From Curvibacter sp. GWA2_64_110 (GTDB taxonomy: Bacteria; Pseudomonadota; Gammaproteobacteria; Burkholderiales; Burkholderiaceae_C): a stretch of 64,000 nucleotides of DNA. A program made the position numbers and the translations under genes. The stretch is taken from NCBI GenBank assembly GCA_001797315.1, contig MGPC01000021.1, positions 62,001-126,000 on the forward strand. The letters run 5' to 3'. A model generated the notes under the pieces. It was not told where the DNA came from and ran no database searches. It saw only the letters and a list, made by a program, of their open reading frames with translations. This document shows positions 7,551-59,989 of the stretch, piece after piece. Each line of letters starts with the position of its first letter. Within the stretch, counting starts at the first letter, position 1.

Positions 7551-7985
7551 ATGCGCGTCTTGCTTCTGGCCCTCATGATCGCCCTGCTGCCCCTGCGCGG
7601 CTGGGTGGGCGACGCCATGGCGATGGAGATGATGGCGGCCACGCTGCAGCAGCCGGAAATTGCTATTAATTCCGTAGCATCTCACATAGACATGGCAAGG
7701 GAAACAGCCCGATTCGAGGCCCGCCATGAGGCCATGGTCCATGCCGACTGCCCGGGCCATGCCGCCACGGCCAGCAGCAGCGACACCCCGGCCGGCAGCC
7801 AGCACCAGGCCGACGCGGCCGACTGCGCCACCTGCGCGGCCTGCCAGATCTGCCATACGGTGGCGCTGACGCCGATTCCGCTGCAGATGGCGTCCGCCGC
7901 CCTGCCGACGGTCCAGCCGCAATCATCCTCTCACCACTTCGCCAGCGCCGAGCGCGCACCAGGCTTCAAGCCGCCCATTTTCTGA
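7551..7985 (+). CDS. Secreted Cys/His-rich protein at the head of the copper cluster
   Basis: This is a 144-residue protein with an N-terminal hydrophobic signal (MRVLLLALMIALLPLRGW). The mature part is rich in His and Met and has a Cys cluster (CATCAACQIC), which suggests periplasmic metal binding. It resembles small copper-locus proteins ending in KPPIF-like tails, but I cannot name the family firmly. A dispersed palindromic repeat (7662-7699) lies inside and encodes about 13 residues between signal and Cys region (EIAINSVASHIDMAR). Gene position ahead of the TolC, oxidase and cupredoxin genes suggests a role in copper handling. Confidence 0.65.
   Translation: MRVLLLALMIALLPLRGWVGDAMAMEMMAATLQQPEIAINSVASHIDMARETARFEARHEAMVHADCPGHAATASSSDTPAGSQHQADAADCATCAACQICHTVALTPIPLQMASAALPTVQPQSSSHHFASAERAPGFKPPIF
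7662..7699 (+). repeat. Dispersed palindromic repeat, copy in the Cys-rich gene
   Basis: GCTATTAATTCCGTAGCA begins the copy. GCTA and TAGC are the inverted arms, followed by a weakly conserved ACATAGACATGGCAAG tail. It is read through in frame by the host gene and accounts for the segment between its signal peptide and its Cys-rich part. Confidence 0.55.
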
Positions 7986-8075
7986 TCCTGACAGCCGTAG
8001 TGCGTCCGCTGTGTCCCGAAACCGGGCCCATGGCGGTGCCACACCGTTCCCTGAACGCTGTTTTGGAGAAGATTC

Positions 8076-8390
8076 GTGAAATACCCCACCCTGCTGACCC
8101 TGGCCGTTCTGGCCTGGCCGGCACTCAGTCTGGCGCAAAGCACACCGGAAAAAACCAGCGCCGCCATCGCCGCTGACCCTGGTGCGCCGGTGCCCGCCGT
8201 GCGCTACCGCTCGGCGCTGGAACACAACCCGCACGGCGTTGTGCAGGACAGCGAGGACTGGCGCGCCGCCAACGCCCGCGTCGGCCAGTTCGCGCGCGGC
8301 CACAGTGACATTCTCAAGGCCGAACAGGCGCACGGCACGGACCAGCCGGCCATCAGCCCCAGCACACCGGTCCCAGGAGCAAGACGATGA
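8076..8390 (+). CDS. Hypothetical exported protein in the copper cluster
   Basis: This is a 104-residue protein with a clear signal peptide (cleavage probably after ALSLA, near residue 20). The mature part is hydrophilic, with the segment RYRSALEHNPHGVVQDSEDWRAAN, written here only as a landmark of its conserved-looking core around residues 43-66. I do not know its function. It overlaps the start of the TolC-like lipoprotein gene by 4 bp (ATGA), so it is translationally coupled to it and belongs to the copper operon. No metal-binding motif is evident apart from a few histidines. Confidence 0.7.
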   Translation: MKYPTLLTLAVLAWPALSLAQSTPEKTSAAIAADPGAPVPAVRYRSALEHNPHGVVQDSEDWRAANARVGQFARGHSDILKAEQAHGTDQPAISPSTPVPGARR

Positions 8391-9808
8391 AACACCCCCC
8401 TCTTCGGCACAGCGCCATCGCGCTTGCCGCCGTACTGCTGGCCGGCTGCAGTTCGCTCACACCCGAGCAAAACCTGACGGACGTGCAGCAGCTCACCGAG
8501 GGCCGCACCGCCGGCACCAGCGTCACCCTGCAGCGCAACAAGCGCGAGATCGACGACGCCGTGGCCGAGTCGCTCAAGGCACCGCTGACGGCCGAAAGCG
8601 CAGTGCGCATCGCCCTGCTCAACAACCCCGGGTTGCACAGCGCGCTGGCACAGCTCGACATCAGCGACGCCCAGCGCGTGCAAGCCGGGCGCGCGCCCAA
8701 CCCGCACGTCTCGATTGCCGAGTACGCCGAGGGCAGCAAGCTGGAAATCGAGCGCGTGCTGCGTTTCGACGTGGTCGGCCTGCTGTTCCTGCCCTGGAAG
8801 GCCAAATGGCAGGGCCAGCAGCACGAGCTGGCCAAGCTGCAGGCGGCGCAGCAGGTCATCGTTCTCGCCACCGACACGCGCAAGGCCTGGATCAACACCG
8901 TGGCCGCGCAGCAGACGGTGGCCTACCTGGGCCAGGTAAAGGAAGCCGCCGAAGCCGGTGCCGAGTTGGCGCGGCGCATGGCGCGCGTGGGCAACTGGAG
9001 CAAATTGCAGCAGGCCCGTGAGCAGGTCTTCCTGGCCGATGCCGCGGCCCAACTGGCGCGCGCGCAACAGACCCTGTTCAGCGAGCGCGAGAAGCTCACC
9101 CGCCTGATGGGCCTGTGGGGTGCGCAGACGCAGTTCACGCTCGCGCAACGCCTGCCCGACCTGCCGCCGCAAGCCGCTGACATGCAGGATGTGGAAGCGC
9201 GTGCCCTGCGCGAACGGCTCGACGTGCGCTCGGCCGTGGCCGAAACCGGTTACGTGGCCGACTCGCTCGGCATGGTCAAGACCGTGGGCTATCTCAACGG
9301 CCTGACCCTGGCTTACAAGAATGCCAACATCAGCGACAGCGCTGCCGGCACCAACGACATCAAGCACGGCTGGGAACTGGAGCTGCCGCTGCCGATCTTC
9401 GACTGGGGCACGGCACGCAACGCACGGGCGCAAGCGCTGTACATGCAGTCGGCCACGCGCGTGCGCGACGTGGCCGTGAAGGCGCGCAGCGAAGCGCGCG
9501 AGGCGTATCACGGCTGGCGCACCACCTACGACCTGGCACGCCACTACCGCGACGAGGTGGTGCCGCTGCGCAAGGCCATCAGCGATGAAGTGCTGCTGCG
9601 CTACAACGGCATGCTCGCCAGCGTGTGGGACCTGCTGGGCGACATGCGCCAGCAGGTCCTGAGCGTGAACAACGCCATCGAAGCGCAGCGCGACTTCTGG
9701 CTAGCCGACGCAGATCTGCAACTGACGCTGACCGGCACTTCCCCAGGCACCCTGGCCCGCCCGCGCAGTGGTACGGCCGCCATGGCCACCACCTCCCAAG
9801 GACACTGA
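8387..9808 (+). CDS. TolC-family outer-membrane efflux lipoprotein
   Basis: This is an outer-membrane channel protein of the TolC/CusC type, 473 residues. The signal peptide ends in a lipobox (LLAGC, Cys21), so the mature protein is probably lipid-anchored. The body has the long helical, Ala/Gln/Leu-rich pattern with the two internal repeats of the outer-membrane efflux family. Its start overlaps the preceding gene (ATGA), and the oxidase gene begins 2 bp after its stop. CusC-like channels normally pair with CusA and CusB, but neither is in the window, so its export partner is not known. Confidence 0.86.
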   Translation: MKHPPLRHSAIALAAVLLAGCSSLTPEQNLTDVQQLTEGRTAGTSVTLQRNKREIDDAVAESLKAPLTAESAVRIALLNNPGLHSALAQLDISDAQRVQAGRAPNPHVSIAEYAEGSKLEIERVLRFDVVGLLFLPWKAKWQGQQHELAKLQAAQQVIVLATDTRKAWINTVAAQQTVAYLGQVKEAAEAGAELARRMARVGNWSKLQQAREQVFLADAAAQLARAQQTLFSEREKLTRLMGLWGAQTQFTLAQRLPDLPPQAADMQDVEARALRERLDVRSAVAETGYVADSLGMVKTVGYLNGLTLAYKNANISDSAAGTNDIKHGWELELPLPIFDWGTARNARAQALYMQSATRVRDVAVKARSEAREAYHGWRTTYDLARHYRDEVVPLRKAISDEVLLRYNGMLASVWDLLGDMRQQVLSVNNAIEAQRDFWLADADLQLTLTGTSPGTLARPRSGTAAMATTSQGH

Positions 9809-9810
9809 AT

Positions 9811-11190: not shown

Positions 11191-11198
11191 GGAACACC

Positions 11199-11795
11199 AT
11201 GAACGCTATCAAATTTATAGCTGCCTGCGCAATATTGACGGGCGCCAATGCCGCATTTGGCCATGAACCCCGGCAAGGACAGCCGATGCACGCCGCCGCC
11301 GCAGAGCAGAAGGACTGGGGCATCGCTGGTGATGCGAAGCAGGTCAGGCGCACCATCACGCTGACGATGTCAGACACCATGCGCTTCACGCCTGGCCGCA
11401 TCGAGGTCCGGCAAGGCGACACCGTGCGTCTGCGCGTGCGCAATGCCGGCAAGATGCAACACGAACTGGTGCTCGGCACTGCCGATGAACTGGCGGCCCA
11501 TGCCGCCTTGATGCGCAAACACCCGGGCATGGAACACGACGAACCCTACATGGTGCACGTGGCACCGGGCAAGACCGGCGAGATCCTCTGGACCTTCAAC
11601 CGTGCCGGTGAATTCGAGTTTGCCTGCCTGATCGCCGGCCACTACCAGGCCGGCATGAAAGGCAGCATCCACGTCATCACCGCGAAGGCGGGCAAGGACA
11701 AGCCAGCCGCTGTACCAGCCGCCACCCGCCGACAAGGCGGTGATGGCATGCAGCAACATGTCATGATGGAGATGAACCATGGTCAACACTACTGA
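11199..11795 (+). CDS. Periplasmic cupredoxin-like copper protein
   Basis: This is a 198-residue secreted blue-copper-type protein. The plastocyanin/azurin-like fold has a full set of type-1 ligands by position: H88 (KMQHELV), C143, H148 and M153 (FACLIAGHYQAGM). A His/Met-rich C-terminal tail may bind additional copper. The start at 11199 is 8 bp after the oxidase stop. Most of the signal peptide (AIKFIAACAILTGA) is encoded by a dispersed palindromic repeat at 11205-11246. Its 3' end overlaps the DUF411 gene by 17 bp. The likely role is copper storage or electron transfer with the oxidase (inference). Confidence 0.88.
   Translation: MNAIKFIAACAILTGANAAFGHEPRQGQPMHAAAAEQKDWGIAGDAKQVRRTITLTMSDTMRFTPGRIEVRQGDTVRLRVRNAGKMQHELVLGTADELAAHAALMRKHPGMEHDEPYMVHVAPGKTGEILWTFNRAGEFEFACLIAGHYQAGMKGSIHVITAKAGKDKPAAVPAATRRQGGDGMQQHVMMEMNHGQHY
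11205..11246 (+). repeat. Dispersed palindromic repeat forming the cupredoxin signal peptide
   Basis: GCTATCAAATTTATAGC is the palindromic head of this copy (GCTAT/ATAGC arms), followed by a TGCGCAATATTGACGGGC tail. Codons 3-16 of the cupredoxin gene are made of it, so the repeat supplies the hydrophobic export signal. Confidence 0.7.
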
Positions 11796-12273
11796 ACACC
11801 TGCGCCGCCGTACGTTGCTGCAGGCCGGCTTGGCCGCAGCGCTGGGCACCCTGCCGCTGCTGGCCAGCAGCAACACCGGCCCCCAACCTGTGATCGAAGT
11901 CTGGAAGACGCCCACCTGCGGCTGCTGTCACGACTGGATCCGGCACCTGCAGACCAACGGTTATGAGGTGCGGACGCACGACGTCAGCGATGCCGTCAAG
12001 CGCGAAGTTCGCCAGCGCCTGGGCCTGGCCGACAGGTTCGGCTCCTGCCACACCGCGCTGGTGGGCGGCTACCTGCTCGAAGGCCATGTGCCGGCGCGCG
12101 ACATCCAGCGCCTGCTGAAAGAAAAACCGCGCGCCCTGGGCCTGGCCGTGCCCGGCATGCCGGTCGGCTCGCCCGGCATGGACGGCCCCGAATATGGCGG
12201 CCGCAAAGACCCGTACGACGTGCTGCTGGTGCAGCGCGGCGGCAGCGCCTCCGTTTATCAGTCTTACCGTTGA
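11779..12273 (+). CDS. DUF411 family metal-binding protein
   Basis: This is a 164-residue exported protein of the DUF411 family, found in copper and silver resistance clusters. The N-terminus RRRTLLQAG plus a hydrophobic stretch resembles a Tat signal. The thioredoxin-like domain begins VIEVWKTPTCGCC with Cys47, Cys49 and Cys50, the expected metal or redox site, followed by the GSCHT and EGHVP elements of the family. It overlaps the cupredoxin gene by 17 bp, which indicates tight coupling. DUF411 function is not established in general, though a role as a copper chaperone is often proposed. Confidence 0.88.
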   Translation: MVNTTEHLRRRTLLQAGLAAALGTLPLLASSNTGPQPVIEVWKTPTCGCCHDWIRHLQTNGYEVRTHDVSDAVKREVRQRLGLADRFGSCHTALVGGYLLEGHVPARDIQRLLKEKPRALGLAVPGMPVGSPGMDGPEYGGRKDPYDVLLVQRGGSASVYQSYR

Positions 12274-12284
12274 AGGAATCCCGC

Positions 12285-12617
12285 ATGAAGACCCTTGCCC
12301 TGACTCTCAGCCTGCTGCTGGCCGGCGGCCATGCCCTGGCCCAAAGCCAGACCAACGACCACGACAGCCACCACGCCTCGCCCGCAGCCAGCGAGACAAC
12401 CGAAGCCGAAGTGCGCAAGGTGGACAAGGCGGCGAAGAAGATCACCCTCAAGCACGGCGAGATCAAGAACCTCGACATGCCGCCCATGACCATGGTGTTC
12501 CAGGTCAAGGACGCGGCGCTGCTGGACCAGGTGCAGGCCGGCGACAAGGTGCGCTTCACGGCCGACAAGATCAACGGTGCTTACATCGTGCTCACCATCG
12601 AATCAATGAAAAACTAG
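12285..12617 (+). CDS. CusF-like periplasmic copper-binding protein
   Basis: This is a 110-residue protein with a signal peptide (cleavage after ALAQ) and a CusF/DUF-type OB-fold domain. The motif LDMPPMTMVF aligns with the CusF copper site NWPEMTM, but the Trp that caps Cu(I) in E. coli CusF is Met here. The ATG at 12285 is chosen over 12270 because it gives a clean signal peptide. It is the last gene of the copper operon. Its stop codon shares CTAG with the stop of the convergent radical SAM gene. Confidence 0.86.
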   Translation: MKTLALTLSLLLAGGHALAQSQTNDHDSHHASPAASETTEAEVRKVDKAAKKITLKHGEIKNLDMPPMTMVFQVKDAALLDQVQAGDKVRFTADKINGAYIVLTIESMKN

Positions 12618-13933: not shown

Positions 13934-13938
13934 TTTCC

Positions 13939-15606: not shown

Positions 15607-15618
15607 GCGTCGAAAGAC

Positions 15619-30544: not shown

Positions 30545-31057
30545 ATGATGCGCATGCTCGTTCCCCTTGCCGCAGCGGCCCTGCTGTCGGCCTGCGCCAC
30601 GCCGACCGGCCCGACAGCTTCTGCCCAGCTGCAGCCCACGCGTGGCAACGCCACCAGCGGCGAAGTGCGTTTCACCCAGCAGGGCGACAAGGTGCTGGTC
30701 AGCGGCGAGGTGCGCGGCCTCAAGCCGAATGCCGAGCACGGCTTCCATGTGCACGAGAAAGGCGACTGCTCCAGTGGCGACGGCATGAGCACCGGCGGCC
30801 ACTTCAATCCCATGGGCAAGATGCACGGCGCGCACGAGGGCAGCGAGCACCATGTAGGCGACCTACCGAGCCTGAAGGCCGATGCCTACGGCGTGGCGCG
30901 CATCAGCTTCGAATCGAGCAGCATCTCGGTCGGCAGCGGCAGCAGCGATGTCGTGGGCCACGGCCTGATCGTGCACCGCGACCCGGACGACTTCAAGACC
31001 CAGCCCACCGGCAATGCCGGCCCGCGCCTGGCCTGCGCCGTCATCACCCGTATGTAA
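30545..31057 (+). CDS. sodC: Superoxide dismutase [Cu-Zn], lipoprotein type
   Basis: This is a periplasmic Cu,Zn superoxide dismutase of 170 residues. The signal ends in a lipobox-like LLSAC, so the enzyme is probably lipid-anchored. Copper and zinc ligands are visible in GFHVHEKGDCS, GGHFNP and the HHVGDLP region, with the structural disulphide Cys in GDCS and in the C-terminal LACAV. An AGGAG site precedes the ATG at 30545; ATGs at 30548 and 30554 are possible. Its end overlaps the convergent mocA gene by 14 bp. It protects against external superoxide. Confidence 0.93.
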   Translation: MMRMLVPLAAAALLSACATPTGPTASAQLQPTRGNATSGEVRFTQQGDKVLVSGEVRGLKPNAEHGFHVHEKGDCSSGDGMSTGGHFNPMGKMHGAHEGSEHHVGDLPSLKADAYGVARISFESSSISVGSGSSDVVGHGLIVHRDPDDFKTQPTGNAGPRLACAVITRM

Positions 31058-31589
31058 GTCCTTGCCGTGCCTGCAGCAGCTGCAAGGCCTGCTGCAGGTC
31101 CTGCACGGTATCGATGTCGGTCACGCAGCCGGCATCATCCACTATTAATTCAGTAGCACCTTGCGCAATAACGACGGGCGCTGCACCCTGATTTCCCTGT
31201 AAGGCCATGAGCTGGGGACCACAGCTGCGGGCAAAGCGCACCGGGTGGCCGTGCCGTCCCTGGTACACCGGCCGCACCACCGCATGCTGCGCCGGCGCTT
31301 CGGCCACGCGGCGGAGGGTCTGCGGCTGGACCAGCGGCAGGTCGGCCGGCAGGATCAGCCAGGCTGAAGCATCGGCCGTCGCGCGCACTGCGGCGGCAAT
31401 CGAGTCGCCCATGCCGGGGTGGCCGCGCTCTTCCAGGTACAAGGGAAGGCCGCTGGCGCGTACCGCATCCAGCGTGTGCTGCAGCACGGTCTTGCTGCCC
31501 AGCAGCGCCTGCAGCTTGTGCGTGCTGCCACCCGAGGCGAGAAAGCGCTCGCCCCGTCCGGAGGCGAGCACGATCACCACGGGCTGCAT
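31044..31589 (-). CDS. mocA: Molybdenum cofactor cytidylyltransferase MocA
   Basis: This is a 181-residue nucleotidyltransferase that attaches CMP to molybdopterin, giving the MCD cofactor used by xanthine-dehydrogenase-type enzymes. The N-terminus VIVLASGRGERF is the nucleotide-binding loop, and LILPADLPLVQP holds the metal-binding Asp. It is the last gene of the molybdenum hydroxylase operon, 15 bp after xdhC. A dispersed palindromic repeat at 31141-31183 lies within it and encodes APVVIAQGATELIV on the opposite strand. That insertion is in frame. Confidence 0.88.
   Translation of the reverse strand: MQPVVIVLASGRGERFLASGGSTHKLQALLGSKTVLQHTLDAVRASGLPLYLEERGHPGMGDSIAAAVRATADASAWLILPADLPLVQPQTLRRVAEAPAQHAVVRPVYQGRHGHPVRFARSCGPQLMALQGNQGAAPVVIAQGATELIVDDAGCVTDIDTVQDLQQALQLLQARQGLTYG
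31141..31183 (+). repeat. Dispersed palindromic repeat, copy inside mocA
   Basis: The copy begins ACTATTAATTCAGTAGCACC and ends with the shared TTGCGCAATAACGACGGGCG tail. The first base is A instead of G, so the left arm is one base short. It runs antisense to mocA and is translated in frame by it. Confidence 0.65.
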
Positions 31590-36094: not shown

Positions 36095-37036
36095 TTAAAG
36101 CCAGCCCGCCAACAGCATCACCAGCGGCAGCGTGAGCAGCGCCAGCGCGTTGGACACCATGACGCTGGCCGTCACCAGCTCCTCGGCCACCGCATAACGC
36201 TGCGAGAACAGGAAGACGTTGGCGCCGATCGGCAGCGCCGCCGTGACCACCATCACCAGCAGCGGCAGGCCGCTCAGGCCGAAGAGCGTGCCGAGCAAGG
36301 CCACCAGCGCCGGCATCAGCAGGTTCTTCACCAGCGACACACCAAAGGCGCCGCGCAGCTGCGCCCCCACGCCCGAGCCGGCCAGCGTCACCCCCACCAG
36401 CAGCAGCGCCAGCGGGCCGAAGGCATTGCCCAGCCACTGCAGGGGTTTGTCGATGGCCTCGGGAATCACCCAGCCGGTCTGGGCAAACAGCAGGCCGGCC
36501 AGGATGGGCAGCGGCACCGGGTGGATGACGGCATTGCGCACCGCCCCCAGCACGGTGGCCAGCAGGTGCCGCGCATCGCCCTGCCCGGCGGCTTCGCGTG
36601 CCACCGCCAGCTCCAGCACCACGGTGCCGGCGGTCAGCAGCACCAGCGCGTGCAGCGACACCAGCGTCAGCAGGATCACCAAACCGTCCGCGCCATAGGC
36701 CAGGCCGATGAGCGAGATGCCGATCATCACCGTGTTGCTGAAGGTGCTGGCCAGCGCCAGCACGGCGGCGCGCCGGTTGAAGCCCTGCAGCGCCAGCGTG
36801 GCGGCGAACAGGAGAGCGGCGGCGACGAAGTACGCCGCCAGCGGCCGGAAATCAAGCTGCTCGACATGCACCGCGCTCATGGTGCGGAACATCAGCGCCG
36901 GCGTGAGCACCACAAACACCAGATTCGACAGATCTTTGGTGGCCTCAGCCCTGATCCACCGTGCGCGCCCCGCTATGAAACCGATAGCAACCAGCAGGAC
37001 AACGGGAATCAGGGCGGACAGGACGGAAGGGTTCAC
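36095..37036 (-). CDS. AEC-family transporter
   Basis: This is an inner-membrane carrier of 313 residues of the auxin-efflux-carrier (AEC) family, with about ten predicted helices in two halves. The start is a GTG at 37036. Members in bacteria often carry malate, pyruvate or other carboxylic acids. It lies 31 bp downstream of the acyl carrier protein gene, on the same strand, so it may belong to that operon and supply or export an acid used there (inference). A possible copy of the dispersed repeat (36972-37000) lies within its first helix. Confidence 0.85.
   Translation of the reverse strand: MNPSVLSALIPVVLLVAIGFIAGRARWIRAEATKDLSNLVFVVLTPALMFRTMSAVHVEQLDFRPLAAYFVAAALLFAATLALQGFNRRAAVLALASTFSNTVMIGISLIGLAYGADGLVILLTLVSLHALVLLTAGTVVLELAVAREAAGQGDARHLLATVLGAVRNAVIHPVPLPILAGLLFAQTGWVIPEAIDKPLQWLGNAFGPLALLLVGVTLAGSGVGAQLRGAFGVSLVKNLLMPALVALLGTLFGLSGLPLLVMVVTAALPIGANVFLFSQRYAVAEELVTASVMVSNALALLTLPLVMLLAGWL
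36972..37000 (+). repeat. Possible dispersed palindromic repeat in the AEC gene
   Basis: GCTAT-GAAACCG-ATAGC followed by AACCAGCAGGACAACGGG resembles the family. The encoded residues (VAIGFIAG) also look like normal AEC helix 1, so this copy is uncertain. Confidence 0.3.
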
Positions 37037-42523: not shown

Positions 42524-44572
42524 TCAGAAGCTGATCTGCAGGCCGGCTTTCAGGTTGCGCCCCGGCAGCGGCGCCTTGCCTGCCGCGGTCTGCGTCAGGA
42601 TGGAACTGGCCGAATAGGCCAGCGTGTCGCCGATGTTGTCCAGCCGCGCGTACCACAGCAGCTGCGACTTGCCGGTTTTGGCACGGTAGGTCAGCGCCGC
42701 GTTCCACAGCGTGTAGCCGCTGGTGGCCAGCTGGCCGTCGGGCACGCGGTCCTGCGCCGCGATCTGGTCGACACCCAGGCGCGCACCCCAGGGGCCACCG
42801 GACCACAGCAGCGTGGCGCCCAGGCGCATCGGTGCGATGCGCGGCAGCGGCTGGCCGGTGCTGGTGTTGTCGGCCCGTACGGTGTCGGCACGCAGCGCCA
42901 GGTCGAGCTTGTGCGCCCCTTCCAGCAAACGGATGTTGCCGTTCACCTCCAGCCCGGTGAAGCGCGCCTGCACCTGGGTGTAGCTGTACTTCGGCGGCGA
43001 GGCCGTCAGGTCGGAGCCTTCGAGCGAGATGTAGTTGCCGAACTGGTTGACGAAGGCCTGCACACCGGCGCTGTGGGCGCCGCGCCGCCACGCGGCGCCG
43101 ATATCCAGGTTGGTCGAGCGTTCCTTCTCCAGGTTGGCATTGCCGATCTCATAGGCGTTGGTCGCCACGTGCTGGCCGTCGGCGAACAGCTCGTAGTCTT
43201 TCGGCGCCCGCTCGCTCCATGACAGATTGGAAGTGAGCTGCCACTCGGGCGCGACCTTCCACAAGGCCCCCAGCGCATAACTGATCGGCAGGAAGTGGCG
43301 CGAAGCAGCCGTGAAACGGCTGAGGGTCGGGTGGCCGAGCGAGTCCACCTGGACCGACTCCAGCCGCGCGCCGGCACTCAGGCGGCCCCAGCTCGTGGCC
43401 AGTTCCTCGTGCGCGAACGCCGCGCCCTGGCGCGTGCGGCTGTAGGGCGCAAACGCTTCGCTGCCGTCGGCCGAGAACTCGCCGTCCTCGTACTGCAAAC
43501 CGACCACACCATCGAGCGCCCCGACCTTGGCATGGCGCGCCTGCAGGCGCAGGTCGTTGCCGGTGTTCTTGAACAGCGTGCCGGCCGCACCGGCATTGAA
43601 CTCGGTGTGCTGGTAGTCGCTGCGGCTGAACTGCGCCTTCACGCTTTGCAGCGCACCGCTCAGGTCGCGCACTTCGCCCTCCAGCGCCAGGCGGCTGGAC
43701 TGCATGCCGATCCGGACCTCGTCTTCGGCCACCGTGCCGTAGCGCGTGCCGTAGCTGGAGAGCGAGGCGCCCAGGTAGCCGCGGTCGAAGAACAGCGAGC
43801 CGCCGAGCGAGCCGCCCCAGGCTTCGCTGGCCGAGTTGCAGATGCGCCGGCCGTAGCTCGTCACGCCACCGCGGGTGCAGGCCAGATCCGCCGGCACACT
43901 GACGTCCTGCGTGTTGCGCGACATCACGTCGGCATGCAGTGCGTAGCGGTCGGTGCCGGTCTCCAGCAGCACGGCGCCGGACTGTTCGCGGTTGCCGCTG
44001 GCCAGGCCCAGGTCGGCCTTGCCGGCCACGCCACCCTTGGCGTCGAACAGCGGTTCGCGCGGAATGCGGTTGTCGATCACGTTGACCACGCCGCCGACCG
44101 CATTGCCGCCGTACTGCAGCGCGCCGGGGCCACGCAGCACCTCGACCCGTTCAATGGTCAGCGGATCCTGGGTCACGGCGTGGTCGTAGCTCAGGCTGGA
44201 GACATCGCTGCTGGCGCCGCCGTTGTTGAGGATGCGGATGCGGTCGCCGTCGAGACCGCGGATCACCGGCCGGCTGGCGTTGGGGCCGAAGTAGGTGCTG
44301 CTGACGCCGGGCGTGCCGTCGAGCGTTTCGCCCAGCGTCGATTTGGAGCGCAACAGCAGCTCATCACCCGAATACTGGGCGGCAGGCGCTATCAATTCGG
44401 TAGCACCCAGCGGATTGCCGGTGACCACCACCGGTGCCAGGCTGGGCGCCTCGGCGGATTGGGCCCAGGCATCGGCGCCGGCCAGCAGGGCCAGCGCGGC
44501 GGCGGCCGTTGGGAAAAGAGGAAAGACAGAGGCAGCGCGAGGCGCACTGCGCGGTGGGTTGGTGTTGTTCAT
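42524..44572 (-). CDS. TonB-dependent receptor, ZnuD-like
   Basis: This is an outer-membrane TonB-dependent receptor of 682 residues from the ATG at 44572. After the signal peptide (cleaved near AWAQ) comes the TonB-box and plug region (LAPVVVTGNP, VIRGLDGDRIRILNNG, VEVLRGPGALQYGGNAVGGVVNVID) and then the barrel, ending in the terminal Phe (GLQISF). A pair of Cys in a surface loop (ACTRGG and RRICNS) and the neighbours point to the zinc receptor ZnuD. It follows a small protein, DUF3299, permease and ATPase genes, a set linked with zinc limitation. Haem or copper uptake is an alternative. Confidence 0.86.
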   Translation of the reverse strand: MNNTNPPRSAPRAASVFPLFPTAAAALALLAGADAWAQSAEAPSLAPVVVTGNPLGATELIAPAAQYSGDELLLRSKSTLGETLDGTPGVSSTYFGPNASRPVIRGLDGDRIRILNNGGASSDVSSLSYDHAVTQDPLTIERVEVLRGPGALQYGGNAVGGVVNVIDNRIPREPLFDAKGGVAGKADLGLASGNREQSGAVLLETGTDRYALHADVMSRNTQDVSVPADLACTRGGVTSYGRRICNSASEAWGGSLGGSLFFDRGYLGASLSSYGTRYGTVAEDEVRIGMQSSRLALEGEVRDLSGALQSVKAQFSRSDYQHTEFNAGAAGTLFKNTGNDLRLQARHAKVGALDGVVGLQYEDGEFSADGSEAFAPYSRTRQGAAFAHEELATSWGRLSAGARLESVQVDSLGHPTLSRFTAASRHFLPISYALGALWKVAPEWQLTSNLSWSERAPKDYELFADGQHVATNAYEIGNANLEKERSTNLDIGAAWRRGAHSAGVQAFVNQFGNYISLEGSDLTASPPKYSYTQVQARFTGLEVNGNIRLLEGAHKLDLALRADTVRADNTSTGQPLPRIAPMRLGATLLWSGGPWGARLGVDQIAAQDRVPDGQLATSGYTLWNAALTYRAKTGKSQLLWYARLDNIGDTLAYSASSILTQTAAGKAPLPGRNLKAGLQISF
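44388..44409 (+). repeat. Dispersed palindromic repeat, copy inside the TonB receptor gene
   Basis: GCTATCAATTCGGTAGCACC shows the typical head (GCTA/TAGC arms). The tail is poorly kept. It lies in the plug N-terminal region and is read in frame on the minus strand (ATELIAPAA), between the TonB box and the plug core. Confidence 0.6.
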
Positions 44573-45597: not shown

Positions 45598-46818
45598 TCA
45601 GTTCTTCGAACTCAGTAATTGTCCGGCTTCCACCCGGTAGGCGCTGAGCGCCGGCAGCAAGGCCGCCAGCACCGCCACGCCGAGCGCGAGCACCGGCACC
45701 CAGGCCTCCACCCCCAGCCAGAGCCAGCCGGTCAGGGGCAGCGATTGCTCGGCCTGCAACAAATAGCCTAGCAGACCTGTCAAGCCGTGGCCGACGAGCA
45801 GGCCCAGCACGCTGGCCAGCACGGCCAGCCACAGTGCCTCGCACAGCAGCAGGCCGGCCAGCCGGGCCGGGCTGGCACCCAGCATGCGCAGCAGCGCCAG
45901 ATCGGCACGGCGCTCGCGCACCGCGTTCCACAGCGCGATGAAGACGCTCAGGGCCGCGGTCAGCAGCAGCACGGCGCCGAAGCCGCGCAGCACGTCGGCA
46001 CCGACACCGACCATGCGCAGCAGGCGCGTGATCTCCAGTGCCGGCGCCGCCGCCTGCAGCTTGGTCGTGCTGTTGACGAAGCGCGGAAACGAGACGGCGG
46101 CCAGCGGGCTGCGGTACCGGATCAGCGCCAGCGTGATCTCGCGCTGCTCGTCTTCGCGGGCCGCGTCATGGTCGTCGTCGTGCGCATCGGCCTTGCCGTG
46201 AGCGACCTCATGCACCGCCCACACCGATTCGGTGGCGGTCAGCACCAGCCTGTCCAGCACGCAGCCGCAAGGCACCAGCACGCCGACCACCCGGTAGGGA
46301 TGGGCCGCATGCGCCGCGCCGCCACCGCCCAGGCCATGGGCGCCGGCAAAGGCCTGCCCCGGCTGCAGCCCGGTGGCCTGCGCCGCCTGGGCGCCGAGCA
46401 CCACCTCCATCGGCGCCTGCCAGGGCTGGCCTTGCGCCAGTTGCGCGCCGTAGTGGCGCAGGTAGTCGGGCGTGGTGCCGACAATGCGAAAGCCCTGGTA
46501 GCTGTCGCCCAGGCTGAGCGGAATCAGTTGGGCGACGCGCGGGTCACGCGCCAGCGCCTGCACGGCGGCCAGCGGAATATTGCCCGGCGGCACGTCGAGG
46601 TGAAAGACGCCGGCCAGGATCAGCTGCATCGGGCTGCCCTTGGCGCCGACCACGGCGTCGATGCCGGCCAGGTCGCGCTCGAAGGCACGGTCGATCTGCG
46701 CACGCGTCAGCAACACAAAGGTGATGGCGGCCAGGCCGAGCGCGAGCAGCAGCAGGTTGAGGCCGGCGGCCAGCGGCCGCGAGACCAGGTAGCGCCACGA
46801 CAATGCTATTGTTTTCAT
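45598..46818 (-). CDS. FtsX-like ABC permease with His/Asp-rich loop
   Basis: This is a 406-residue permease of the MacB/LolC/FtsX superfamily, with an N-terminal helix, a large periplasmic domain and three C-terminal helices. A loop in the periplasmic domain (about residues 203-226) is packed with His, Asp and Glu (HEVAHGKADAHDDDHD), which is likely to bind zinc or another divalent metal. Its ATG overlaps the ATPase stop (ATGA). With the ATPase it forms an ABC unit that may act in zinc homeostasis rather than lipid or antibiotic transport. A dispersed repeat lies at its very start (46805-46825). Confidence 0.86.
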   Translation of the reverse strand: MKTIALSWRYLVSRPLAAGLNLLLLALGLAAITFVLLTRAQIDRAFERDLAGIDAVVGAKGSPMQLILAGVFHLDVPPGNIPLAAVQALARDPRVAQLIPLSLGDSYQGFRIVGTTPDYLRHYGAQLAQGQPWQAPMEVVLGAQAAQATGLQPGQAFAGAHGLGGGGAAHAAHPYRVVGVLVPCGCVLDRLVLTATESVWAVHEVAHGKADAHDDDHDAAREDEQREITLALIRYRSPLAAVSFPRFVNSTTKLQAAAPALEITRLLRMVGVGADVLRGFGAVLLLTAALSVFIALWNAVRERRADLALLRMLGASPARLAGLLLCEALWLAVLASVLGLLVGHGLTGLLGYLLQAEQSLPLTGWLWLGVEAWVPVLALGVAVLAALLPALSAYRVEAGQLLSSKN

Positions 46819-46825
46819 AGCTTTT
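46805..46825 (+). repeat. Dispersed palindromic repeat at the start of the permease gene
   Basis: GCTATTGTTTTCATAGC (GCTAT/ATAGC arms) spans the ATPase-permease junction. On the minus strand it supplies the start MKTIAL of the permease and the last codons of the ATPase. The conserved tail of the family is not clear here. Confidence 0.5.
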
Positions 46826-47495
46826 CGCGGATGTTGGATAAGGCCTGAGGCTCATTTTGAGCATCAAGATCGAGCACCGTGGCCGCCGGCAACGCCTGCC
46901 GCACCCGTGCGTCGTGGGTGGCGATCACCAGCGTGGCGCCGGCCTGCTGCGCTGCAGCCTGCAGCAGCGCCAGTGCATCGCGCGCGGCGTCATCGTCCAG
47001 GCTGGCGGTGGGCTCGTCGGCCAGGATCATCTTCGGTTGCAGCAGCACGGCACGCGCCAGCGCCACGCGCTGTGCCTGGCCGCCCGAGAGCTGCCTGGGC
47101 TTGCGCGCGGCCAACTCGGCCACGCCCAGGGCCGCCAGCGCACGCTGGATGGCGGCCCGGTCCTCCGGCAGGCCGGCGGCAAAGTAGGCCAGCCCCAGGT
47201 TGCCGGCCACGCTGAGTGCCTCGCTCAGGTGCAGCTGCTGCGGCAGAAAGCCGATGTGGCGTGCGCGCCAGGCATCGCGCTGCACAGCGGAAAGTGCCGC
47301 CATCGATTGGCCGGCCACTACCAACTCGCCGCCACTGGGCGAGCGCAGGCCGGCCGCCAGCGAGAGCCAGGTGGACTTGCCGACCCCCGAGCGCCCACGC
47401 AACAGCAGTACGCCGCCTTGCGGCACATTCACATCGGGAAAGGTCAGCTGCGCCCCGCCCGGGTAGCGGTATTCGAGTCCGTGCGTGGCGATCAT
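46815..47495 (-). CDS. ABC transporter ATP-binding protein of the zinc locus
   Basis: This is a 226-residue ATPase of the LolD/MacB type. Motifs are GRSGVGKST (Walker A), the signature LSGGQAQR, Walker B MILADEPTASLDD and the switch His in VIATHD. The start at 47495 (MIATHGLEYRYPGG) is preferred over the frame to 47564, which overlaps msrA. It is 10 bp after the msrA stop and overlaps the permease gene, so it is part of the run msrA-ATPase-permease-DUF3299-small protein-receptor on one strand. Confidence 0.9.
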   Translation of the reverse strand: MIATHGLEYRYPGGAQLTFPDVNVPQGGVLLLRGRSGVGKSTWLSLAAGLRSPSGGELVVAGQSMAALSAVQRDAWRARHIGFLPQQLHLSEALSVAGNLGLAYFAAGLPEDRAAIQRALAALGVAELAARKPRQLSGGQAQRVALARAVLLQPKMILADEPTASLDDDAARDALALLQAAAQQAGATLVIATHDARVRQALPAATVLDLDAQNEPQALSNIREKL

Positions 47496-48083: not shown

Positions 48084-48349
48084 GAGCCTGTTCACAGTTT
48101 CACAGGGGTCGCGTTAGGACGCAATCGGAATGAGTTGGCCGCCAACATTCCGCCGCATGGGCTGATGCCCATGCAAGGGATTTGGTGGACAAATCACCCG
48201 ATTTCGCCCCACCCCGAAGGGCAAGCATCTGGCCGGGCGGTCTGCGGCGTTGCAAAGCCTCGCCGGGCATTAGCCCGGCTTCGTTTTGCGCCTTGCATCC
48301 CATCCCGGCAAGGTACTTGCGCGGCCCCTGTGAAACTGTGAACAGGCTC
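48084..48349. mobile_element. MITE-like element with 30-bp inverted repeats
   Basis: The ends GAGCCTGTTCACAG... (48084-48113) and their reverse complement (48320-48349) match over 30 bp with one mismatch, and TTA flanks both sides (48081-48083, 48350-48352), as a 3-bp target duplication. The 266-bp body has no transposase. The GAGCCTGTT end and the TNA-type duplication recall the IS5 family (IS1031 group), which would mobilise it in trans. Only small frames (for example 67 residues on the minus strand) are inside. Confidence 0.72.
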
Positions 48350-54231: not shown

Positions 54232-54258
54232 GGCGGCTCTCTCAGCGGCCGTACGACC

Positions 54259-54600: not shown

Positions 54601-54637
54601 ACCACCGCCTTCCATTTCCGAGCCCCAAAGGACGATC

Positions 54638-55972: not shown

Positions 55973-55989
55973 GACCGCCTGTCCGCCCA

Positions 55990-57303
55990 TCAGGGGCGGA
56001 CCAGTTCCAGCACCGCGGCGACCGTGCGGTCGGCCGCACCGCGGTGCGCCAGCGCAAAGCGGCTGGCAGCTTCGGCCATGGCTGCCTGGCGCACCCCGTC
56101 GCTCACCAGCACCCGTGCAGCCTGCACCGCCTCGGCCAGCGAGGCGTGGCGCGTGGCGGCACCGGCCACCTGCGCCAGTTCAGCCGCCTCGCTGAAATTG
56201 AAGGTGTGCGGCCCCATCAGCACCGGGCAGCCGCAAGCGGCCGCCTCGATCAGGTTCTGCCCGCCCAAGGGCGCGAAGCTGCCGCCCAGCAAGGCCGCAT
56301 CGCTCAAGCCGTAGTACAGCGCCATCTCGCCCAGGGAATCGCCAAGCCAGATATCCGCCGCCTCGGGCTGCGCCCCCCACTGGCTGCGGCGCGACAGCGT
56401 GAAGCCCTGCGCCTTGATCAGCTCGGCCACCTCGTCGAAACGCTGCGGATGGCGCGGCACGATCAGCCACTGCACCGACTGGACCTGGTTTGCTACAGAA
56501 TCAGAAGCACCTGGCGCAGATCCGACAAGGCTGGAGGTCCGAAAAGACTTCAAGAGTTGCAGCAACTCCAGCTCCTCGCCTTCACGCGAGCTGGCAAACA
56601 TGAGCACCGGCCGGCCGACCGCGGCGCGCCAGGCGCGGCCCGCCGCCAGTTGCGCCGCATCGGGTGTGGCATCGAACTTGAGGTTGCCAAACACCCCCTG
56701 CACCGGCACCCCCAGTGCCGCAAAGCGGGCGGCGTCGTCCTGCGTCTGAGCCCATACCGCCGCCAGGCCGCGGTAGGCCGGCCTGGCGAGCCAGGACAGC
56801 CGCTGCGCCTGGCGCTGCGACTTGGCGCTCAGACGTGCATTGGCCAGCACCAACGGCACGTGGCGCTGCGCGCAGGCGGCAGCCAGATTGGGCCAGACCT
56901 CGGTCTCCATCAGGATGCCGATATGCGGCCTGAAGTGCACCAGAAAACGCTGCACCGCGCCCGGCGTATCCCACGGCAGCCAGACCTGCACATCACCCGG
57001 GCGCAGCAGGCTTTTGCCTTCGGCGCGGCCGGTGGCCGTGCCGTGGGTGAGCAGCAGGCGCATGCCGGGCCATTGCGCGCGCAGCCGGGCCAGCAGCACG
57101 GCGGCGGCACGGGTCTCGCCGAGCGAGACCGCATGCACCCAGACCGTCCGGCCGTCGGCTGGCAGTGGTGGCAGCGCGTAGCGGCCGAAGCGCTCCTCGA
57201 CCGCCTCCAGGTAGCCCGGCTCCTGTACGGCGCGGCGTGCGATCTTGCGTCGCAGCAGCGGCTGGGCCAGCAGCGCCAGCAGGGAATACAGCGCGCGCAT
57301 CAT
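55990..57303 (-). CDS. waaA: 3-deoxy-D-manno-octulosonic acid (Kdo) transferase
   Basis: This is a membrane-anchored glycosyltransferase of 437 residues that adds Kdo to lipid A precursor in LPS synthesis. Landmarks are a short N-terminal helix (MMRALYSLLALLAQPLL), WVHAVSLGETRAA, NARLSAKSQRQAQRLSWL and LLGGSFAPLGGQNLIEAAA. A start at 57303 or 57300 overlaps the waaC stop (ATGA). An additional loop of about 20 residues (VGSAPGASDSVANQV within) between EGEELELLQLL and LIVPRHPQRF is made by a dispersed repeat at 56492-56530. Confidence 0.93.
   Translation of the reverse strand: MMRALYSLLALLAQPLLRRKIARRAVQEPGYLEAVEERFGRYALPPLPADGRTVWVHAVSLGETRAAAVLLARLRAQWPGMRLLLTHGTATGRAEGKSLLRPGDVQVWLPWDTPGAVQRFLVHFRPHIGILMETEVWPNLAAACAQRHVPLVLANARLSAKSQRQAQRLSWLARPAYRGLAAVWAQTQDDAARFAALGVPVQGVFGNLKFDATPDAAQLAAGRAWRAAVGRPVLMFASSREGEELELLQLLKSFRTSSLVGSAPGASDSVANQVQSVQWLIVPRHPQRFDEVAELIKAQGFTLSRRSQWGAQPEAADIWLGDSLGEMALYYGLSDAALLGGSFAPLGGQNLIEAAACGCPVLMGPHTFNFSEAAELAQVAGAATRHASLAEAVQAARVLVSDGVRQAAMAEAASRFALAHRGAADRTVAAVLELVRP
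56492..56530 (+). repeat. Dispersed palindromic repeat inside waaA
   Basis: GCTACAGAATCAGAAGCACC heads the copy and CTGGCGCAGATCCGACAAGG ends it. Arms are less perfect than in other copies. It runs antisense to waaA and is translated in frame as an extra loop. Confidence 0.65.
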
Positions 57304-58322
57304 GTCTGGGGCGCCGACACGGCCAGCCAGGCCTGCCACACGGCATCGACCGACGGTGCGGGTTGGGCATAGACACTGCGCTGGCGCGGCCGGTTGATGG
57401 GACCGGTGCGCCAGGCGGTGTCGAAGTTGTAGAGCTGCACATGCGGCAGGTCCAGCGCCACGGCGATGTGGCTCAGGCCGCTGTCGACGCCGATCACGCC
57501 GGCACAGCCGGCCAAGGCATCGGTCAGCGCATCGAGCGCCAGGCGCGGCCACACGCTGGCATGCGCCATCGCGCGCGCCATGGCCTCGCTGCGCTGCTGC
57601 TCGGTGTCGGTGCCGTGCAGCAAGGCGACGTCATAGCCGGCCGCATCCAGGCGGCGTGCCAGTTCCAGCCAGTATTCAGCGGGCCACTCTTTGTCGGCAC
57701 GCGAGGTGCCATGCACCAACGCCACACAGGGGCGGCCGGAAGCATCCGATTTTGCTATCGTTTCAGGAGCACCTGGCGCAGTATTCACCTTGGCCACGAG
57801 CCCAAAAGATTCCGAATCCGGCACAGGGTAGCCAAGCGCACGGGCGCACAGTTCGCGCCCGCGCTGCACCGCGTGCACGTGCGGCTCGATGCGAATCGCG
57901 ACATCGGCCACCCAGCGCGTCGGCGCTTCATAGCCCGAGCCTTCGGTCCGGTTGGCCAGCGCGTAGCGTTGGCCGGTCGGTGCCAGCCGCGCCAGCCAGG
58001 TCACCAGAGCCGACTTGCTCAGGCCCTGCAGGTCGATCACGGCGTCGTAGGCTTCGCGCTGCAGTTCGGCCTTGAAGGCGCGCCACTCGGCACGCGTGGC
58101 AACCGACAACGGCGCCTTGCGCCAGCGCCGCAGCTCGCAGGGAATGACACGCTGCACGCCCGCACAGCGCCGTGCCAGCGGTGCAAAACTGCGTTCGACC
58201 ACCCAGTCGATCTGCGCCTGCGGCAACGCGCGCCGGATGTCCTGCACCGCCGGCATGGCGTGCACCACATCACCCAGCGAGGACAGCTTGACGATCAGGA
58301 TTTTGGGACTGTTGGCCCCCAC
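57300..58322 (-). CDS. waaC: Lipopolysaccharide heptosyltransferase I
   Basis: This is the cytoplasmic-side glycosyltransferase adding the first heptose to Kdo2-lipid A; 340 residues from a GTG at 58322. The core starts PKILIVKLSSLGDVVHAMPAV, the family N-terminus, and GVIGVDSGLSHIAVALD holds the sugar-binding site. The GTG has a GGAG 8 nt upstream. An ATG at 58421 would add 33 residues that are only translated repeat (GPPQDAKAPSGG), with no Shine-Dalgarno. A second dispersed repeat (57754-57790) makes an extra segment TAPGAPETIAK. It lies between phosphomannomutase and waaA on one strand. Confidence 0.88.
   Translation of the reverse strand: MGANSPKILIVKLSSLGDVVHAMPAVQDIRRALPQAQIDWVVERSFAPLARRCAGVQRVIPCELRRWRKAPLSVATRAEWRAFKAELQREAYDAVIDLQGLSKSALVTWLARLAPTGQRYALANRTEGSGYEAPTRWVADVAIRIEPHVHAVQRGRELCARALGYPVPDSESFGLVAKVNTAPGAPETIAKSDASGRPCVALVHGTSRADKEWPAEYWLELARRLDAAGYDVALLHGTDTEQQRSEAMARAMAHASVWPRLALDALTDALAGCAGVIGVDSGLSHIAVALDLPHVQLYNFDTAWRTGPINRPRQRSVYAQPAPSVDAVWQAWLAVSAPQT
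57754..57790 (+). repeat. Dispersed palindromic repeat inside waaC
   Basis: GCTATCGTTTCAGGAGCACC heads the copy and CTGGCGCAGTATTCACC follows. It is nearly the same as the copy in waaA, lies antisense to waaC, and is read in frame as the segment NTAPGAPETIAK. Confidence 0.68.
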
Positions 58323-58329
58323 GCTTGTC

Positions 58330-58400
58330 ACTCCGTGTACTACGCTGCCCCCCGAGGGGGCCTTCGCGTCTTGGGGCGGCCCGGCGACGCTCAAGCCGTG
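58330..58400 (-). repeat. Comamonadaceae-type intergenic repeat between phosphomannomutase and waaC
   Basis: The stretch contains GCCCCC-CGA-GGGGGC (58347-58361), a compact GC hairpin, and TTGGGGCGGCCCGGCGAC. I recall similar sequence scattered in Comamonadaceae genomes, often between genes. It fills the gap before the likely waaC start and could be read as its N-terminus if the ATG at 58421 were used. Confidence 0.5.
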
Positions 58401-58422
58401 CTCCGGCGAGCCCTGCTTCATG

Positions 58423-59805
58423 CTAATGCGCCGCCTGCTCGAACGCGGCATCGGCTTTGACACTGCGCAACAGCGCCAGCATCTCGCCTTCGATGCGGTG
58501 CAGCGCCTCGGGCGTGTGCCCCTCGAAGCGCAGCACCAGCACCGGCGTGGTGTTGGAAGCGCGGATCAGGCCGAAGCCGTCCGGCCAATCGACACGCACG
58601 CCGTCAATGGTGTTCACGTGCGCCGGAGCGGCGAACGAGGCCTTGGCGATCAACTGTTCGACCAGTTGGTGCGGCTCGCCCTCGGCGCACTTCACGTTCA
58701 GCTCAGGGGTGGAAAAACTCGTCGGCAACGCATTGAGCACGGCACTGGCATCCTTGGCACGGCTCAGGATTTCCAACAGACGGCAGGCGGCGTAGGTGCC
58801 GTCGTCAAAGCCGAACCAGCGCTCCTTGAAGAAGATGTGCCCGCTCATCTCGCCACCCAGCGGTGAGTCGATTTCCTTCATCTTGGCCTTGATCAGCGAG
58901 TGGCCGGTCTTGAACATCAAGGCCTGGCCGCCGGCCGCTTCAATGGCCGGTGCCAGGCGCTGCGAACATTTGACGTCGAACACGATGGTGCCACCGGGCA
59001 CGCGGGCGAGCACGTCCTGCGCGAACAGCATCATCTGGCGGTCGGGGAAGATGTTCTGGCCATCCTTGGTCACGATGCCCAGGCGGTCGCCATCGCCGTC
59101 GAAAGCCAGGCCGAGTTCGGCGTCGCTGCTCTTGAGCGCGGCCATCACGTCGCGCAGGTTCTCGGGCTTGCTCGGGTCGGGATGGTGGTTGGGAAAGGTG
59201 CCGTCGACTTCACTGTGCAGCTCGGTCACCTCGCAGCCAAGCGCGCGCAGGATGGCCGGAGCCGAGGCGCCGGCCACGCCGTTGCCGGAATCGACCACGA
59301 TCTTCATCGGCCGCGCCAGCTTGATGTCGCCGACGATGCGGTCACGGTACGGCGCAAACACATTCAAGTGCCTCACCGTGCCCACAGCATTCAGTTGCCA
59401 GCTCTCGGCCTCCATCGTGCGGCGCAGCGCCTGGATCTCTTCGCCGTAGATGGCACGGCCGGCCAGCACCATCTTGAAGCCGTTGTAGTCGGCCGGGTTG
59501 TGGCTGCCGGTGACCTGGATGCCGCTGCGGCACACGGTGCTGGCAGCAAAGTAGAGCATGGGGGTGGTGACCATGCCGACGTCGATCACGTCGATGCCGG
59601 TGGCCGTCAGGCCACGCATCAACGCGGCGCTCAGGGCCGGGCCGCTCAGGCGGCCATCGCGCCCCACGGCCACCGTGGTTTCACCGGCTTGGCGCGCGGC
59701 CATGCCGAAAGCGCGGCCCAGGGCTTCGGCCACCGCCTCGTTCAGCGTGGCGGGCACGATGCCGCGGATGTCGTAGGCCTTGAAAATCGATGCGGCAACT
59801 TGCAT
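58423..59805 (-). CDS. Phosphomannomutase/phosphoglucomutase
   Basis: This is an alpha-D-phosphohexomutase of 460 residues (AlgC/ManB type) giving mannose-1-phosphate or glucose-1-phosphate for LPS and exopolysaccharide. The catalytic serine is in TGSHNPADYNGFK, the metal loop is DGDGDRLG, and the sugar-specificity loop is GGEMSGHIFF. The start at 59805 (MQVAASIFKAYDIRGIVP) matches the family. It is followed by a repeat and waaC on the same strand. Both substrates are possible. Confidence 0.92.
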   Translation of the reverse strand: MQVAASIFKAYDIRGIVPATLNEAVAEALGRAFGMAARQAGETTVAVGRDGRLSGPALSAALMRGLTATGIDVIDVGMVTTPMLYFAASTVCRSGIQVTGSHNPADYNGFKMVLAGRAIYGEEIQALRRTMEAESWQLNAVGTVRHLNVFAPYRDRIVGDIKLARPMKIVVDSGNGVAGASAPAILRALGCEVTELHSEVDGTFPNHHPDPSKPENLRDVMAALKSSDAELGLAFDGDGDRLGIVTKDGQNIFPDRQMMLFAQDVLARVPGGTIVFDVKCSQRLAPAIEAAGGQALMFKTGHSLIKAKMKEIDSPLGGEMSGHIFFKERWFGFDDGTYAACRLLEILSRAKDASAVLNALPTSFSTPELNVKCAEGEPHQLVEQLIAKASFAAPAHVNTIDGVRVDWPDGFGLIRASNTTPVLVLRFEGHTPEALHRIEGEMLALLRSVKADAAFEQAAH

Positions 59806-59947
59806 GGGAATTGGTTCAGTCAGGGTTTCTGGTGCTGCGCCGATTGTAGGCGGCGGCCAGTCCCGCACCCGCCTGCCAATCCCCCCGCTCCGCGGGTGGC
59901 GCGCGTATCATGTTGACACCCGCTCTGGCCTCATCGGGCGCCCAGAT

Positions 59948-59989
59948 GCTATCAAAATGATAGCTAATGGCGCAAGACGGACAAGGGCC
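59948..59989 (+). repeat. Dispersed palindromic repeat, intergenic copy upstream of ogt
   Basis: GCTATCAAAATGATAGC is a perfect palindromic head (GCTATC/GATAGC arms), followed by TAATGGCGCAAGACGGACAA. It is the only clear copy outside a coding frame, ending about 15 bp before the ogt start. Confidence 0.7.

Follow-up and report, generated by a model that had tools for sequence, protein, structure and literature searches.

What is the short palindromic sequence that recurs, partly within genes, along a 64,000-nucleotide stretch of the Curvibacter sp. GWA2_64_110 genome (contig MGPC01000021.1, positions 62,001 to 126,000; the window, whose numbering is used below), and by what route did it come to lie there? 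A preliminary description had pointed to nine places (7662, 11205, 31141, 44388, 46805, 56492, 57754, 59948 and, with some doubt, 36972) and likened them to the Rickettsia palindromic elements (RPEs), which are palindromic inserts translated in frame inside genes. We can confirm a dispersed palindromic family in Comamonadaceae that is translated in sense and antisense without frame breaks. Our analysis tentatively suggests, however, that it is a genome-wide motif of this family of bacteria that evolves by substitution in place and not by transposition, and that it is a candidate DNA uptake (self-recognition) sequence. We consider this reading the likeliest, though with odds a little below even, followed by a site for a chromosomal DNA-binding protein and then by fossil mobile elements.

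The abundance of the motif is far above chance. Within the window, the head pattern GCTATYAAWTYNRTAGC with up to three mismatches gave 16 matches against 0.85 expected from shuffles, several of the 16 being one place counted on both strands, and over the entire 3.4-Mb genome (41 contigs) the strict head GCTAT-N7-ATAGCTGC gave 20 matches against none for a reversed control pattern. Because the head-pattern matches have a common tail, 21 copies from this genome, four of them from the window, were aligned into a profile model, R1. As the preliminary description had proposed, the model was then searched in the genome itself and in relatives. It retrieved at least 150 copies from the former, the best 150 of 1735 candidates scored all lying at E ≤ 1.6e-4, so that the copy number does exceed chance. 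In G225, a genome from another genus, R1 likewise found at least 150 copies. An even 300-kb sample of that genome yielded 56 matches at E ≤ 1e-3, which reduce to 53 places once three opposite-strand doubles are removed; this corresponds to about one copy per 5.7 kb and, by extrapolation from the sample, to about 557 per genome. Both genomes therefore hold an abundant, dispersed motif of the kind that DNA uptake sequences form. The profile searches took the best 150 matches per genome in single genomes and the genus, and the best 43 in the order and 34 in the family under stricter filters.

The repeat unit spans about 70 bp (about -4 to +66) and not the roughly 40 bp first described: in 90 copies of exactly 66 positions from the Curvibacter genome, information rises steeply at -4 and ends at 65/66. 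Its consensus, RWWT-GCTAT-N-AAWTT-N-ATAGC-TGC-TTGCGCATATTCGACAAGGGCTAGAGCCCAATTTGAC....AA, consists of an RWWT lead, the GCTAT-N7-ATAGC dyad, a GCGC...GG(G/C)C center (the second dyad, 23 bp from the first), an A-tract at positions 51 to 54, and a terminal AA. A scan for dyads in the Curvibacter copies ranked a center at position 9 first and one at 32 third; in G225 the centers at 32 and 9 came out on top, as did 9 and 32 in copies from Polaromonas. Positions 8 to 10 are all A/T in 89 of the 90 Curvibacter copies and 40 of 41 from G225, and none of these 89 and 40 triplets contains a TpA step. Positions 51 to 54 are all A/T in 78/90 and 38/41 copies, respectively, with TpA in one and none. The center reads GCGCATATT..ACAAGGGC in the Curvibacter genome and GCGCTTG...GACAAGCGC in G225, the latter form being alike in Acidovorax copies (n = 9); the center thus exists in genus-level variants, comparable to the dialects of uptake sequences. 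The consensus also has a TAG in one frame of each strand.

Presence or absence of the motif follows lineage. Of the 26 species examined in the genus, four reach 137 or more matches at E ≤ 1e-5 (143 in the genome studied here, 143 in G131, 137 in G275 and 142 in G287, from the best 150 matches scored in each); six have two to eight, and 16 have none. In the family, 40/150 genomes, from 36/126 genera, yielded one or more matches at E ≤ 1e-9. Across 120 genomes of the order, three of which belong to the family, the Curvibacter genome alone passed E ≤ 1e-12. The exact 26-base head occurs at no fewer than 119 loci, with Polaromonas, Rhodoferax, Acidovorax, Giesbergeria, Simplicispira, Xenophilus and Curvibacter among the named records; the genus labels of the center variants come from the 80 of these 119 loci that were listed.

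The decisive question is whether the motif was inserted into genes or written over them. The preliminary description favored protein-modifying inserts and considered that the idea would fall if orthologues without any GCTAT palindrome had the same residues in the same places. We compared interval lengths between carriers and other species at ten sites; 7662 had no motif-free comparator and 44388 was left out as a noncopy. Among the comparators were low-copy species (G278 with eight matches, G274 with six, G288 with three, and G284, G286 and G289 with two each), and in none of them does the site in question give a match. Three such species (G278, G288 and G284) are the only comparators at 36972 and 31141, and the length difference is 0 nt in each. 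The former copy is eroded (36923 to 36992, minus strand; full-length match 36988-36923, 17.1 bits, E 0.0036) and is read in sense at the N terminus of an AEC-type transporter gene (36095-37036, Pfam Mem_trans); we accept it as real, given scores of 39.5 and 37.7 bits for the orthologous copies of two sister species. There the motif is overlaid on native LLVAIGFIAGR residues: G278 has LLVALGYVAGR, whereas LLVAIGFIAGR or LLVAIGFVAGR is found in carriers, whose differing bases are the ones that spell GCTAT...ATAGC...CGCGCAA...AGGGCTGAAGCC. The copy at 31141 (31137 to 31206, plus strand, 47.5 bits, full length) lies in a minus-strand mobA-like nucleoside triphosphate transferase gene (31044-31589; Pfam), is read antisense with its head in the GCT frame, and has counterparts in the sister species.

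A third instance is in lpxK, where the length difference is again 0 nt in 12 species and ranges from -9 to -134 nt in seven more distant ones with poor anchors. Translation by eye places the residues of carriers here on DHDDYASWQRPRDRDYTLLCTEKDA-like sequence, and the stretch aligns with the solved LpxK structure 4ehw with a two-residue gap; they are therefore native residues. G289, a distant low-copy member of the genus, has by eye a motif-like lpxK stretch. At 36972, 31141 and lpxK, orthologues without the palindrome thus equal the carriers in codon number and have mostly identical or similar residues, which tells against protein-modifying inserts and agrees with origin by point mutation, as in uptake sequences.

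The remaining sites are less uniform. Two opposite-orientation copies lie in one long minus-strand reading frame of the Curvibacter genome (locus L094, C32:47560-49671, at 701-766 and 1342-1407), and both are common to the three sister species. Carrier minus other, the second differs in length by -3, 0 and 3 nt, and the first by 12, 24 and -18 nt. The copy at 11205 (11201 to 11270, plus strand, 61.9 bits, full length) begins two codons past the ATG (11199) of a cupredoxin-like gene (Pfam), right after ATG-AAC; in the GCT frame it encodes a signal-peptide-like run, AIKFIAACAILTGANAAFG. It is common to the three sister species. Carriers are here 3 and 9 nt longer than G272 and G277, noncarriers with shorter, motif-free signal peptides. 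The copy at 57754 (57750 to 57819, plus strand, 23.8 bits, full length), antisense in a minus-strand heptosyltransferase-like gene (57300-58463; Pfam) and present in the sister species, shows differences of 0 to 33 nt against 11 species. Some of these species have a head-like remnant, which suggests loss of the motif at some sites. Net gains were found at three sites. Carriers are 45 to 48 nt longer than 11 other species at 56492 (56488 to 56557, plus strand, 28.8 bits, full length), which is antisense in a minus-strand Kdo-transferase (waaA) gene (55990-57552; Pfam) and has sister copies. In xseA they are longer by 27 to 34 nt than 15 species and by 21 nt than two, with differences of 6 and -3 nt against two others. 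At 46805 (46801 to 46870, plus strand, 52.4 bits, full length) they are longer by 24 to 27 nt than eight motif-free species, with -56 nt against G247, at a gene junction; two G247 loci (L118 and L119) gave no alignment to the window. The last copy spans two minus-strand genes, the end of one for an ATP-binding cassette (ABC) ATPase and the start of one for an FtsX/MacB-like permease (45598-46818; Pfam), whose ATG lies in the reversed head; sister copies are present.

These gains bear on the possibility that the copies are fossil mobile elements, comparable to repetitive extragenic palindromic (REP) sequences, miniature inverted-repeat transposable elements (MITEs) or RPEs, which were inserted ancestrally and decayed unevenly. 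The palindromic head, the clade-wise bursts of copies and the net gains of 24 to 48 nt at some sites are what this explanation would lead one to expect. At 59948 (59944 to 60013, plus strand, 56.3 bits, full length; common to the three sister species), considered apart from the ten sites, the only two species that could be anchored are 82 and 102 nt shorter, but over a broad stretch between genes whose anchors are poor; an insertion at this place is conceivable. The extra codons at 56492, xseA and 46805 nevertheless fall short of the 66 to 70 nt of the unit, and a consistent gain of 63 to 72 nt, as insertion of an RPE-like unit would leave, was seen at none of the ten sites. Nor did we find flanking duplications of 2 to 9 bp above chance pairing around copies in the Curvibacter genome, and insertion does not account for the overlay on native residues in lpxK and the AEC-type gene or for occupation of the same codon across genera. 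We therefore regard mobile elements as an improbable source. The motif appears instead to come or go by substitution in place, whichever state is ancestral.

REP and REPIN elements, which have a short palindrome after a loose tetranucleotide, come with REP-associated tyrosine transposases (RAYTs). A Y1-type, RAYT-like transposase of about 240 aa is encoded at C36:71138-71464 of the Curvibacter genome and in 24 other genomes of the genus. It is thus found in 25/26 genus genomes, mostly as a single copy and in carriers and noncarriers alike, and no motif copy stands beside it in three carriers. Accordingly, the RAYT/Y1 transposase (the sole transposase family checked) was rejected as the mover, its presence being independent of the motif; with no target duplication either, neither mark of a REP/RAYT or MITE system, a cognate transposase or terminal or target repeats, was observed. 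The single-copy state of the enzyme suggests a domesticated role. The window also contains, at 48084-48349, a repeat of about 266 bp with 25-bp terminal inverted repeats (GAGCCTGTTCACAGTTTCACAGGGG) that recurs at 85 to 93% identity in several genomes of the genus and looks like a MITE.

Once in place, the motif is retained. The sites in lpxK and xseA have a match in all three sister carriers (G131, G275 and G287). In carrier genomes of other genera, the identical lpxK codon is occupied in 15 of the 25 that could be mapped, and the identical xseA codon in 13/27; at each site there is one further match 12 nt off. This search covered 28 of the family's 39 other carriers and took matches to E 0.1. 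For the 22 other species of the genus, loci of this region from 21 were compared and none matched at E ≤ 0.5, the two shortest loci stopping short of lpxK. In 13 orthologous sets, which include 44388, there are no gaps at the 66 positions, gaps being counted at positions of the Curvibacter copies only. Identity among the three sister species is 87.6% (1005/1147) in strong columns, 78.5% (610/777) in middle ones and 76.6% (510/666) in weak ones. At third codon positions of the ten coding sets, identity is 78.5% in strong columns, 68.3% in weak ones and 77.7% in the flanks. A difference as large as that observed was never reached in 1000 permutations of the column labels. The letters of the motif hence outlast the other letters of the same copies. 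Same-length, motif-free orthologues and retained sites together indicate substitution and retention, unlike the situation in RPEs.

Eight of the nine places first named stand, including the doubtful one at 36972. The exception, a head-like palindrome in a TonB-receptor gene (44388 to 44404, plus strand), matches R1 only over positions 1 to 29 (15.5 bits, E 0.011); the three sister carriers have no R1 match there and the bases form no palindrome, and we rejected it as a head-only match. The eighth accepted copy, at 7662, is eroded (7658 to 7714, plus strand, 19.1 bits, positions 1 to 53) and lies in an open reading frame (ORF; 7551-7985) with no Pfam match; its orthologues score 45.7 bits in G287, 28.1 in G131 and 25.4 in G275. 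Each accepted copy in the window recurs in the three sister carriers, except that the region of 36972 was not covered in G287, and the syntenic stretches fetched from these carriers held no further copies. The statement that only 59948 is fully intergenic needs qualification, as the tail of this copy reaches the ATG at 60005 of the ORF 60005-60508, the copy at 46805 bridges two genes, and that at 11205 follows ATG-AAC.

With respect to genes, the copies at 7662, 31141, 36972, 56492 and 57754 lie inside reading frames, and those at the last four places are translated in frame within genes, as RPEs are. Over the genome, a simple codon test placed 16/94 classifiable copies inside genes against 47% of random window positions, and in G225 8/52 against 48% of random places; the codon score was trained on the window and applied to G225 too, and it called only two of nine window places tried intragenic, which makes it conservative. 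Of the 16 intragenic copies, ten run antisense and have a head that is read as GCT-AT. A large number of copies are found at the ends of genes, and those at gene starts can provide a start codon (46805) or a signal-peptide-like run (11205). The position at gene ends, together with the GGGC-N4-GCCC that by eye precedes T-rich sequence in some copies, could indicate an RNA-level element, such as a terminator, attenuator, processing site or small RNA. Consensus folding, in contrast, pairs only the 5-bp head without compensatory change, copies inside genes are both sense and antisense, and Rfam shows no family in the window apart from one irrelevant, subthreshold microRNA match away from the motif. 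We accordingly consider a function in RNA very improbable.

A more serious rival, although still an unlikely one in our estimate, holds that a chromosome-structuring or nucleoid-associated protein binds the motif, its dimers sitting on the two dyads and reading the shape of the A-tracts, and that weak selection keeps the site. The dyads centered at 9 and 32, the TpA-free A-tracts, the length of about 70 bp and the sites occupied across genera all suit such a protein, and evolution in place would look alike. Against it, loss of the motif in 16 of 26 close species would require loss of the protein. A segregation-type signal in particular is at variance with the near-random spacing of the top 150 copies in G225 (coefficient of variation 0.99) and with the lack of significant strand polarity in its two halves (35 plus and 30 minus, 37 plus and 48 minus; p 0.25). 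In the Curvibacter contigs, neighboring copies agree in strand in 63 cases and differ in 50, and local skew agrees in 41/95. One stretch of G225 (C1:1581266-1589527) has six copies in the same orientation within about 8 kb, three of them at 38.7 bits, which probably ride on a repeated gene or domain.

The DNA uptake reading draws on several precedents. Uptake sequences are described as evolving by point mutation and not by insertion, as underrepresented in coding sequence and as containing rigid AT-tracts (PMC7811141); they also fall into dialects and contain a stop in one of the frames (PMC3630211). The depletion of the present motif inside genes and its lack of strand polarity in G225 speak for the same reading. 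In Acidovorax temperans, of which strain DSM 7270 is a named carrier of the motif, transformants arose only with DNA of its own species, and in Verminephrobacter eiseniae transformation is selective and requires type IV pili (PMC4212676). In the mechanism that we envisage, some protein would read the motif, most likely the DNA-receptor system of type IV pili and competence. Motif-bearing fragments would be taken up better and then recombine, and uptake and recombination would together raise the frequency of the motif wherever proteins tolerate it. Loss of the reader in a lineage would leave the motif to erode, and in-frame translation within genes would be a by-product. With somewhat more reserve, we suggest that Comamonadaceae may have an independently evolved self-DNA recognition code of their own, a two-dyad A-tract motif of about 70 bp with genus dialects, whose spread would have been driven by uptake even into essential enzymes such as LpxK.

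Several observations weigh against an uptake sequence. The known ones have asymmetric cores of 9 to 12 bp, whereas information here spans -4 to 65/66, although a short functional core may lie within the unit; a 70-bp unit with two dyads looks more like the site of a DNA-binding protein. At about one copy per 5.7 kb, G225 is sparser than Haemophilus, for which about one per kb is given (PMC7811141). Columns rich in information show no higher conservation than the flanks of the 13 sets, which are mostly coding (87.6% versus 86.6 and 86.7%), and either drive or selection may be at work. Carriers have net extra in-frame codons at 56492, xseA and 46805. Finally, comEC is present in 146 of the family's 150 genomes irrespective of the motif, and in 39 of the 40 carriers (in one carrier, G122, split over three frames), so that its presence does not discriminate carriers. 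Two copies in the Curvibacter genome (C31:87456 and 87779) lie near a comEC match (C31:86045-86848), which may be coincidence.

Part of the motif also occurs on mobile DNA. An ORF (DUF1010) in a class 1 integron cassette between dfrA12 and aadA2, presumably the one known as orfF or gcuF, matches motif positions 12 to 51 at 90% (about 886-960 of locus L338, NC_004464.2 65811-67650, reversed). Matches of 90 to 95% were found in 1744 of 1750 matching plasmid records and, among the matches listed, fall in the same cassette stretch. Residues ~27 to 52 of the cassette protein are an antisense reading of the motif. From this likeness, the sequence suggests that the cassette next to dfrA12 came from a Comamonadaceae chromosome. 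The idea that DUF1010 is as such a translation of the motif is no more than a lead, since of ten antisense frames of other copies that were tried, out of 35 found, only one matched, and weakly (E = 6).

The motif is a concrete, testable candidate for the signal behind self-preference in A. temperans and V. eiseniae, which the available portion of PMC4212676 leaves unnamed; our searches of the open-licence literature found no publication linking DNA uptake sequences with Comamonadaceae. The motif also imposes a constraint at the level of DNA on the codons and residues of core proteins in different genera, and it marks the origin of DNA, as in the integron cassette beside dfrA12. If the reader is not an uptake system, the motif would point to a new DNA-binding system that acts across the genome in bacteria common in fresh water and soil.

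Among known systems, REP and REPIN elements are alike in having a palindrome after a loose tetranucleotide and unlike in that the present motif evolves in place and the Y1 transposase does not track its carriers. RPEs share the palindrome and in-frame translation; the difference lies in the equal length, at several sites, of genes with and without the motif. A literature search with six short stretches of the motif returned, among the matches listed, hits for one stretch only, which were unrelated. Tong et al. (2017; PMC5217627) report two motifs that, fitted by eye, look like fragments of the unit: ATAGCT(N)22CAAAAG in Polaromonas naphthalenivorans CJ2 (125 copies, 101 intergenic and 18 in genes; positions 13-46) and GCTTAT(N)5AAGCG in Acidovorax ebreus TPSY (114 copies; positions 25-40). 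There they stand as separate, unexplained motifs of single genomes, whereas here one unit of about 70 bp is traced across genera and orthologues. The beta-proteobacterial repeat elements (BRE; Hot et al. 2011; PMC3110155) are dispersed repeats, some of them in Comamonadaceae and inside coding sequences; those of Bordetella measure 75 to 91 bp and often stand in tandem. The 63.7 to 78.9% G+C of the Bordetella elements sets them apart from the copies studied here, which average 46 and 45%, and identity with BRE, compared by description, is unlikely. The motif also resembles the uptake signal sequences (USS) of Pasteurellaceae and the DNA uptake sequences (DUS) of Neisseriaceae, the two families for which sequence-selective DNA uptake is described in PMC7811141. 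Shared with both are genome-wide overrepresentation, evolution by point mutation and scarcity in genes, and, as far as PMC7811141 and PMC3630211 describe them, also AT-tracts (as in USS), division into dialects and a stop in one of the frames.

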